DNA of 46,124 bases from an uncultured Bacteroidota bacterium (GTDB lineage Bacteria; Bacteroidota; Bacteroidia; NS11-12g; UBA9320). Shown one piece after another: positions 40,862-43,425 of the stretch. The stretch lies in assembly GCA_913050005.1 (NCBI GenBank), contig CAJXBI010000009.1:1-46124 (forward strand), written 5' to 3'. The notes below the pieces were generated by a model that searched no databases, had not been told where the DNA came from, and worked only from the letters and a program-made list of their open reading frames with translations. How positions within the stretch are numbered: position 1 is the first letter of the stretch; every line of letters starts with the position of its first letter. The position numbers and the translations under genes were made by a program.

Positions 40862-42247
40862 ATGAATTTTGATGTAATCGTAATCGGAAGTGGTCCTGGT
40901 GGGTATGTAGCTGCAATTAGAGCTTCCCAATTGGGTCATAAAGTTGCTGTCGTAGAGAAGGCTGAACTAGGTGGTGTTTGTTTGAATTGGGGATGTATCC
41001 CTACCAAAGCATTGCTTAAGTCTGCTCAAGTATTTGAGTACATTAACCATGCAGATGATTACGGTATTTCTGTTGACAATGCAAAGCATGATTTTTCAAA
41101 AGTCATTAAGAGAAGTCGAGGAGTTGCTGAAGGAATGAGTAAAGGAATTCAGTTTTTGATGAAGAAGAATAAGATTGAAATTCTTACTGGTTTTGGAACT
41201 GTGATAGCTAAAGGTCAAGTAAGTGTCGACAACAATGGAAAAAAAGAGACGCACAGTGCCAAGCACATAATATTTGCAACTGGAGCAAAAGAACGTCAAT
41301 TACCAAACATTCCTATTGATGGCGAAAAAATAGTAGGTTATCATGAAGCTATGGTACTCAAAGAGCAACCCAAGAAGATGGTTGTTGTTGGTAGTGGAGC
41401 TATAGGGATGGAGTTTGCATACTTCTATACTGCCATGGGTACAGAAGTAACGGTGGTAGAATTTATGCCAAGCATTGTACCCAATGAGGATGCAGATGTA
41501 TCTAAAGAACTTGAAAAGTTATATAAGAAGAAAGGGATGACCATCATGACAAATAGTTCTGTCGAATCGGTAGATACGAAAGGAAAAGGTTGTGTGGTAA
41601 AAGTAAAAACATCCAAAGGCGAGGAAACCATCAAATGTGATATCGTTCTTTCTGCTGTAGGAATACAGACAAATCTTGAGAATATTGGGCTAGAAAATTT
41701 AGGAGTTAAAATAGAAAATGGTAAGGTAGTGGTTGATGATTATTACCAAACAAATGTTCCAGGGGTATATGCCATTGGAGATATAGTTCATGGTCCTGCT
41801 CTTGCTCACGTTGCCAGTGCAGAGGGAATTATCTGTGTTGAAAAATTTAGTGGTCAGCATGTAGCTCCTTTGGATTATGGCAATATTCCGGGATGCACCT
41901 ACACGTGGCCAGAAATTGCATCGGTAGGATATACCGAGGCAAAAGCTAAAGAAGCAGGATACGATATCAAAGTTGGTAAGTTCCCATTTAGTGCAAGTGG
42001 TAAAGCAAGTGCTAGTGGTTCGAAAGAAGGGTTTGTTAAAGTCGTATTTGATGCCAAGTATGGTGAATTTTTGGGTTGCCACATGATTGGTGCCAATGTC
42101 ACAGAGATGATTGCTGGGGTAGTATCAGCAAGAAAACTTGAGACAACTGGGCACGAAATGATAAAGACGGTTCATCCCCATCCAACTATGAGTGAAGCTA
42201 TTATGGAAGCGTGTGCAGCAGCGTATGATGAAGTGATTCATCTGTAG
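40862..42247 (+). CDS. lpdA: Dihydrolipoyl dehydrogenase
   Basis: A 461-residue FAD disulfide oxidoreductase (E3) regenerating lipoamide in 2-oxoacid dehydrogenase complexes or the glycine cleavage system. It starts at the ATG at 40862; an upstream TTG adds only nine odd residues. FAD site IVIGSGPGGYVAA (6-18), redox disulfide Cys40/Cys45 in GGVCLNWGCIP, NAD site VVVGSGAIGMEF, and the C-terminal dyad His440/Glu445 in HPHPTMSE are all present. No E1/E2 genes lie nearby. A TTTCTTTG box (40830-40837) in the divergent region could drive it. Confidence 0.96.
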   Translation: MNFDVIVIGSGPGGYVAAIRASQLGHKVAVVEKAELGGVCLNWGCIPTKALLKSAQVFEYINHADDYGISVDNAKHDFSKVIKRSRGVAEGMSKGIQFLMKKNKIEILTGFGTVIAKGQVSVDNNGKKETHSAKHIIFATGAKERQLPNIPIDGEKIVGYHEAMVLKEQPKKMVVVGSGAIGMEFAYFYTAMGTEVTVVEFMPSIVPNEDADVSKELEKLYKKKGMTIMTNSSVESVDTKGKGCVVKVKTSKGEETIKCDIVLSAVGIQTNLENIGLENLGVKIENGKVVVDDYYQTNVPGVYAIGDIVHGPALAHVASAEGIICVEKFSGQHVAPLDYGNIPGCTYTWPEIASVGYTEAKAKEAGYDIKVGKFPFSASGKASASGSKEGFVKVVFDAKYGEFLGCHMIGANVTEMIAGVVSARKLETTGHEMIKTVHPHPTMSEAIMEACAAAYDEVIHL

Positions 42248-42259
42248 TTAGATTAACCT

Positions 42260-42267
42260 TACTTTTG
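42260..42267 (+). promoter_or_regulatory. Candidate -7 box almost touching the SGCSID-protein start
   Basis: TACTTTTG, exact TAnnTTTG, ends one base before the ATG at 42269. If used, transcription would start at about the second ATG (42272), giving a leaderless message. No clear -33 TTG. Confidence 0.35.
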
Positions 42268-42268
42268 T

Positions 42269-42751
42269 ATGATGTTTGATAGTCTAACTGGGAATGGTCG
42301 TGTTTGGATTTTTGCATCAAACCGAAAGCTGACAGCCAATGAGAAAGAGCAAATTAATGCCAAATTTGATGTCTTTTGTAAAGATTGGTCTGCCCACGGT
42401 TCACAATTGAAGGCAAGCTTTCAAATTTTTTACAATCAAATTTTAGTTTTAGGTGCAGATGAAGATTTTGAGCCAGCGAGTGGCTGTTCTATCGATCGAT
42501 CAACTGCTATTTTTCAAGAAATAAATCAAGTTTTACAAATTGATTTATTCAATAGATTAAACCTAGTTTTCAAAGAAAATGATGAAATTGTTATGGTTCG
42601 AATGGCTGATATTCAATCAGCTTATGATTCACATAAAATTTCAGACTCTTCAACTTTTTTCGATAATTCAGTTAATAGTCTACATGACATTAGAACTCGA
42701 TGGGAAGTTCCTTTTAGTGAGAGTTGGGCATTTGCCAAAATAAAAAAATAA
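42269..42751 (+). CDS. Conserved Bacteroidota protein with SGCSID motif, function unknown
   Basis: A 160-residue cytoplasmic protein (two adjacent ATGs; the second, 42272, is equally possible). I recognise the family from its pattern: WIFASNRKLT near the N-terminus, WSAHGSQLKASF, and ASGCSIDRS with Cys73. It is widespread in Bacteroidota and often labelled 'ABC transporter ATPase', but there is no Walker A or ABC signature here, so that label has no support. The conserved Cys and His suggest a catalytic or metal-binding role, which is inference. Its TAA overlaps the tsaB ATG by one base. Confidence 0.88.
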   Translation: MMFDSLTGNGRVWIFASNRKLTANEKEQINAKFDVFCKDWSAHGSQLKASFQIFYNQILVLGADEDFEPASGCSIDRSTAIFQEINQVLQIDLFNRLNLVFKENDEIVMVRMADIQSAYDSHKISDSSTFFDNSVNSLHDIRTRWEVPFSESWAFAKIKK

Positions 42752-43425
42752 TGTCTAAACTACTTCTAATAGAATCGTCCAATGAAGTATGTTCTGTGGC
42801 TTTGTCAAGTAGCGAAAGCATCATTCAAGAAAAATGGATTAATGAGCCCAATTCACATTCCGTTTATCTAGCTACTTTTGTTGATGAAGTAATGCGGAAT
42901 GCGGGGTTGTCTATTCATGAGCTTGATGGTGTTGTGATAAGTGATGGTCCGGGTTCTTATACGGGGTTAAGAATAGGATGTAGTTTGGCTAAGGGAATTT
43001 GCATGGGTGTAAATATCCCGTTGATAGCAGTTTCGACGTTAAAAGGGTTGGCAAGTGTAGCATTAAATGATTATCCCTCCGTCGACCAGATTATCGCATT
43101 AGTAGATGCTCGAAGAAGTGACGCATACATGGGGATTTATGATAAGCATCTCAATCCAATAGTTGAAGAACAGTTTGTGACGATAAATTCTGAACTTAGA
43201 ATTGAAAAAAATAATACTGTGGTTGTAGGTTCAGGTGCGATTAAATTTATCGATGAATTAGACAAAGAAAAAGAATTAAAACACACTAAATCAGCATTAT
43301 ATGCAAGAGATTTATTGAGTGAAGCATTGAAAAAATCGGCAAAACAAGATTATGTAGATTTAACCTCTTATGAACCGAACTATATAAAGTCGGTATTTAT
43401 AACCAAACCAAAGTCTAAATTTTAA
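42751..43425 (+). CDS. tsaB: tRNA threonylcarbamoyladenosine modification protein TsaB
   Basis: A 224-residue ASKHA-fold protein that partners TsaD and TsaE in making t6A37 on tRNAs that read ANN codons. I start it at ATG 42751 (MSKLLLIESS); an in-frame ATG 27 bases upstream lies inside the previous gene. Family marks are IESSNEVCSVALS, DGPGSYTGLRIG (65-76) and VSTLKGLA. TsaB has lost the metal site of TsaD and serves as a scaffold. Its start is coupled to the SGCSID gene by a TAATG overlap, which may tie that unknown family to translation. Confidence 0.95.
   Translation: MSKLLLIESSNEVCSVALSSSESIIQEKWINEPNSHSVYLATFVDEVMRNAGLSIHELDGVVISDGPGSYTGLRIGCSLAKGICMGVNIPLIAVSTLKGLASVALNDYPSVDQIIALVDARRSDAYMGIYDKHLNPIVEEQFVTINSELRIEKNNTVVVGSGAIKFIDELDKEKELKHTKSALYARDLLSEALKKSAKQDYVDLTSYEPNYIKSVFITKPKSKF

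Follow-up and report, generated by a model that had tools for sequence, protein, structure and literature searches.

A cysteine and histidine protein family of Bacteroidota that lies next to tsaB in one genus and usually next to split EtfD genes in the class Bacteroidia

Which process is served by a small protein whose gene runs, by a single base, into the tRNA-modification gene tsaB? The question is raised by the window, by which we mean the whole stretch of 46,124 nucleotides analysed here from an uncultured Bacteroidota bacterium. Three genes follow one another near its end:

40865 to 42247 (start approximate), + strand: gene with the look of an FAD/NAD-dependent disulfide reductase
42269 to 42751, + strand: gene of the family studied here, 160 amino acids, stop codon TAA at 42749-42751
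42751 to 43425, + strand: tsaB (TIGR03725, E 3.3e-42)

Two candidate ATG starts, at 42269 and 42272, are available to the family gene, and the position of the latter is the start in most close relatives. The identity of TsaB is genuine, with 144.9 bits against a TIGR03725 cut-off of 69.3, and the one-base stop/start overlap described in the first-pass annotation is present, base 42751 being common to the TAA of the family gene and the ATG of tsaB (42751-42753). The upstream gene is presumably a dihydrolipoamide dehydrogenase (“Lpd” query). An Lpd-like gene lies upstream of the family gene in G012, G023 and G027 as well, and in G011 it is found nearby, oriented towards the family gene. In the gap after the upstream gene, directly 5′ of the family ATG, the sequence TACTTTTG at 42260-42267 fits TAnnTTTG, an element of Bacteroidota promoters; it may be there by chance, since it is so near the ATG.

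According to the first-pass annotation, databases presumably file this family under the name “ABC ATPase”, and this name is all that speaks for an ABC transporter ATPase. Against it, neither the Walker A pattern [AG]xxxxGK[ST] nor the LSGG signature was found in any of 185 homologues, which agrees with the earlier remark that Walker and ABC motifs are missing; the protein has only 160 residues with a ferredoxin-like model, and Pfam gives it no match. Such an identity is refuted by motif and has next to no chance of being correct. One truncated sequence and three of the second copies were omitted from the 185-sequence set; all four enter the conservation count given below. More generally, no Pfam family was matched by the window protein at E up to 10, nor any by ten members of the family from other classes. 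The NCBIfam scan of the window protein returned no credible match, with one chance row at 0.081, and a domain scan of 81 homologues gave scattered rows only, none better than 0.004. Searches by tblastn with the window protein against plasmid records, and with a Flavobacterium homologue against phage records, found no match. ABC transporters go unmentioned in the accessible part of Gupta and Lorenzini 2007 (PMC1887533), and no study of the family or its neighbourhood was found in the open-licence PMC literature.

The claim that homologues are widespread in Bacteroidota holds. The family is carried by 51 of 58 relatives and by 136 of the 395 genomes of a phylum sample, with 93 of 98 genomes in the window's class (Bacteroidia) versus 43 of 297 in other classes; the named loci include Flavobacterium, Aquimarina, Pedobacter, Mucilaginibacter, Reichenbachiella and others. 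It would be a cytosolic family, ancient within the phylum. A gene this common in the sampled class, with no Pfam or credible NCBIfam match, is apparently unstudied.

The strongest clue to its function comes from the alignment, where two short sites stand out:

42386 to 42397, + strand: Trp40-x-x-His43, in the loop that leads from helix 1 into strand 2 (Trp40 in 121/121 homologues, His43 in 118/121)
42482 to 42496, + strand: Gly72-Cys73-x-x-Asp76, at the N-terminus of helix 2 (Gly72 and Cys73 in 118/121, Asp76 in 121/121)

The string ASGCSIDRS covers residues 70-78, its cysteine being residue 73 (codon start 42485), and the candidate histidine is His43 (codon start 42395). Homologues were collected by homology and not by motif, 138 sequences being collapsed to 121 distinct ones with the partial L021 dropped. 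Whether Cys73 and a nearby histidine are invariant had been set as a check on the first-pass annotation, and both are indeed kept in 118 of the 121, even though identity to the window protein is no more than about 28-40% for many homologues. Judged from the alignment, this conservation is far above chance. Trp13 (117/121), Phe36 (116/121) and Trp153 (113/121) are conserved too. A near-invariant cysteine accompanied by a general-base histidine is what is expected of a cysteine-dependent enzyme, and the Cys73/His43 pair is the best-supported functional element of the family. This near-invariance is what a catalytic pair would show, in line with the earlier suggestion that the cysteine may be catalytic; catalysis itself is inferred. 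Trp40 and Asp76 look structural, and Asp76 may cap helix 2.

The exceptions are instructive. One and the same set of three homologues lacks His43, Gly72 and Cys73, and all of them are second copies from one genus, g25 (G086, G145 and G369). When 58 genomes of this genus were searched, a diverged second copy was detected in 54 (L174 5468-5953 in G086, L143, L175, L242-L271 and L292-L315). Both His43 and Cys73 are absent from all 54 second copies read: position 43 is occupied by E in 25, D in 24, N in 3 and S in 2, and position 73 by A in 17, T in 10, S in 9, L in 6, V in 4, K in 4, E in 3 and Q in 1. Trp40 is still kept in 54/54 and Asp76 in 51/54, and the 19 primary copies of the genus that were read keep all five residues (Trp40, His43, Gly72, Cys73 and Asp76). 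Paired loss at 43 and 73, with free variation at 73, looks like an active-site pair gone idle, and the second copy is likely a conserved pseudo-enzyme beside an active copy. In a quick tree the second copies group together with a support of 0.83 and the primary copies separately with 0.99, and the two clades are not sisters. In G508 (C2:175395-178030) two more second-copy fragments, with internal stops, are found at a distance of 2-5 kb from the intact copy; these are decayed tandem duplicates.

AlphaFold2, run on an alignment of 81 sequences, gave a model of mean pLDDT 92.6 and pTM 0.85, in which two parts can be told apart:

42296 to 42535, + strand: predicted ferredoxin-like domain, residues about 10-89, to which strand 98-103 is added (AlphaFold2)
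42560 to 42748, + strand: C-terminal module, residues about 98-160, with a possible GYF_2-like fold

The first six elements (E10-16, H23-39, E49-54, E58-64, H72-89 and E98-103) follow the b-a-b-b-a-b order of the ferredoxin-like fold. This common fold tells nothing of function. Its topology would place at one end of the domain both the loop joining helix 1 to strand 2, which carries His43, and the junction of strand 3 and helix 2, which carries Cys73. A structure prediction followed by a fold search had been recommended; it yielded a confident model and generic ferredoxin-like resemblances, but no match that stands out, as Foldseek gave none at E 0.001 or lower and VIA-align none at Z 8 or more. 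The first three Foldseek ranks are the N-terminal region of archaeal SerRS (SerRS rows at E 0.049 to 0.10), and SerRS is absent among the 50 VIA-align matches listed, where S6 permutants, MscS and KEOPS share Z values of about 6.5-7.2. The SerRS, S6, MscS and KEOPS resemblances were all dropped as evidence of function. When a profile was searched against the PDB, SAVED-domain chains at E 0.29 and 0.87 were the sole result, and these were taken as chance.

The C-terminal elements of the model are E106-111, H112-120, E129-131, H138-144, E146-148 and H153-157. The profile of this module aligns with GYF_2 (PF14237) in the expected register, with an hhalign probability of 36.8% and a score of 20.5, and on equal columns it scores 16.8, whereas 200 column shuffles reach 16.4 at most. 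However, the full-length family profile gives 13.5% and the sequences of other classes alone 1.9%, the window protein and ten other-class members do not reach the PF14237 cut-off, and GYF_2 does not appear among the 25 families listed of the 51 that the Pfam scan of the 81 homologues gave. The VIA-align row 7vcf_Q, which we take to be TIC56, covers residues 94-160 at Z 7.0, and the available text counts TIC56 among GYF proteins. The module may be GYF_2-like; the resemblance is suggestive, and the assignment was not accepted. Folded alone and without an alignment, the C-terminal stretch came out all-helical at pLDDT 60.8; that model was discarded and, because of this pLDDT, carries no weight against the strands of the full model.

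A second line of evidence is the neighbourhood. Within the class the recurrent neighbour of the family gene is a gene pair for an electron-transfer complex connected with the breakdown of fatty acids. The pair encodes a membrane/4Fe-4S protein and a CCG-domain protein, which match the N-terminal and the middle parts of Mycobacterium smegmatis EtfD at E 1.7e-42 and 1.8e-74. EtfD, available under PDB code 9OJN, links ETF to menaquinone in mycobacteria according to the accessible part of PMC13083937. Of 80 named loci, 69 have the CCG gene upstream in the same orientation (within 1 kb in 43 and within 2.2 kb in 64), as do 15 of 20 loci from the window's own order, where a sixteenth has it on the opposite strand. 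For the nine further families of the class that were covered, the count is 13 of 20 loci. Moreover, presence of the family and of the CCG subunit agree in 98/98 class genomes, 93 having both and 5 neither; the five come from two families (f13 and f14), and their absences may go back to one loss of the whole operon. Within the class, then, both linkage and co-occurrence mark the family as EtfD-associated. Further upstream in the named loci are MlaD (53/80) and an amidase (51/80), and a GH3/beta-lactamase gene lies downstream in 51/80. A 149-aa HAD-like gene was also seen near the split EtfD genes in 24/80 named loci, for example at 4721-5170 of L039. The window's own genome has its split EtfD pair on another contig (L239 4424-6517, G000:C11), and the family gene was not found in the 13-kb stretch around it.

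This picture does not extend over the phylum. Outside the class the CCG subunit occurs in 13 of 43 family-bearing versus 129 of 254 family-lacking genomes, so co-occurrence with EtfD fails there, and in 0/35 other-class loci is a CCG subunit nearby. At those loci (L144-L179) the family gene is found near an L,D-transpeptidase (30/35), a TrkA-type potassium channel (23/35), the signal peptidase I LepB (23/35) and LepA (19/35). Because the association fails outside the class, EtfD is not an obligate partner; with a link that is strong but class-confined, it is at most a partner within the class and not a defining one.

The tsaB linkage that raised our question can now be placed. The first-pass annotation had named its persistence as a thing to check, and had suggested that translational coupling hints at a role in translation or tRNA chemistry. 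Within the window's genus tsaB lies directly downstream in 15 of 16 family-bearing genomes, the exception being G011 (15.6 kb away), but the same holds for only 1 of 35 other family-bearing relatives: G053, from another family of the order, where a CCG gene lies upstream of the family gene as well. One gene intervenes in two of these relatives (G023 and G027), four, all of one genus, have tsaB on the same contig 14-17 kb off, and in 28 the two genes are on different contigs. A tblastn search with a single TsaB query, by which a very distant tsaB could be overlooked, detected tsaB near the family gene in 0/20 loci from the nine further families of the class and in 0/35 loci of other classes. 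It is present in 3 of the 80 named loci, all own-genus contigs, and inspection of the phylum sample by eye found no near pair of the two genes among the matches listed. Co-translation with tsaB is a local arrangement, because the family gene in the window's genus appears to have left the EtfD site and now lies between an Lpd-like gene and tsaB. Persistent linkage is not borne out, and what the annotation itself named as refuting its reading, a linkage limited to a few strains, largely obtains for the tRNA inference. Where a linkage is confined to one genus, a close stop/start overlap seen in a single genome argues only weakly for shared function.

A factor of translation or of tRNA (t6A) modification that acts with TsaB would account for the one-base overlap and for direct adjacency in the own genus and in G053, and one could add the SerRS resemblance (best Foldseek E 0.049) and two listed rows that are KEOPS chains, though tied with unrelated rows. 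Yet tsaB is present in 392 of the 395 phylum genomes and the family only in 136, and the single-query tblastn found no tsaB around it at the loci of the further families and of the other classes. As the linkage is local, this role was rejected as the leading reading, and we consider it very unlikely. The most economical account is that of an enzyme or redox protein that works through Cys73. Our preferred reading, held tentatively and with somewhat less than an even chance, is an uncharacterised cysteine-dependent family. A ferredoxin-like domain would take up the first 100 residues or so; there, Cys73 at the start of helix 2 and His43 in its loop most likely make a thiol active site, the putative roles being nucleophile or redox cysteine for the former and base for the latter. 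The last 60 or so would make up a small module of their own, probably for docking to a partner. As for the process in which the protein takes part, in the window's class this is most likely one linked to the split EtfD, an ETF:menaquinone oxidoreductase.

Against this reading, cysteine and histidine would be just as invariant in a metal site. Cys73 and His43, perhaps with Asp76, might bind a metal or an iron-sulphur cluster in an assembly or repair factor, for instance one for the CCG subunit, as the Cys/His/Asp make-up, the adjoining iron-sulphur subunit and its complete co-occurrence within the class would suggest. However, there is only one invariant cysteine, Asp76 persists in nearly all of the second copies that lost the other two, and 30 of the 43 family-bearing genomes outside the class are without a CCG subunit at E 1e-40; we hold this role to be unlikely. 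A non-enzymatic adaptor or redox sensor, its C-terminal module binding the partner and Cys73 acting only as a switch, would fit the good conservation of that module in second copies devoid of the pair and the weak resemblance to the peptide-binding GYF_2 domain. A redox switch by itself leaves the equally invariant His43 unexplained, though, and Pfam gives no GYF_2 match; we hold this role to be slightly less likely still. Perhaps the preferred thiol enzyme goes further: an unrecorded family with its Trp-x-x-His / Gly-Cys-x-x-Asp site on a ferredoxin-like domain and GYF-like docking may tend the EtfD electron path of Bacteroidota, its target being for example a thiol, a thioester or the unusual clusters in the CCG subunit, with the dead paralogue of g25 (54/58 genomes) as its regulator. 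This extended version is decidedly doubtful. With its cysteine and histidine pair, a likely dead copy supplied by nature and the neighbouring EtfD genes, an otherwise anonymous protein becomes directly testable.

Among known systems, ferredoxin-like domains share the element order of the family, and VIA-align returns many such folds with Z up to 7.2, but the W-x-x-H / G-C-x-x-D site was not derived from any of the matches listed. MsrA is an enzyme with a cysteine at a helix N-terminus, and the Gly-Cys at a helix start within an alpha+beta fold would be an analogous arrangement, although no sequence or fold match of the family to MsrA was found. As for EtfD, the family protein is no part of its sequence and is not brought up in the accessible part of the EtfD paper (PMC13083937), whereas the gene pair beside which it usually lies in Bacteroidia is EtfD itself, divided between a membrane/4Fe-4S protein and a CCG protein.
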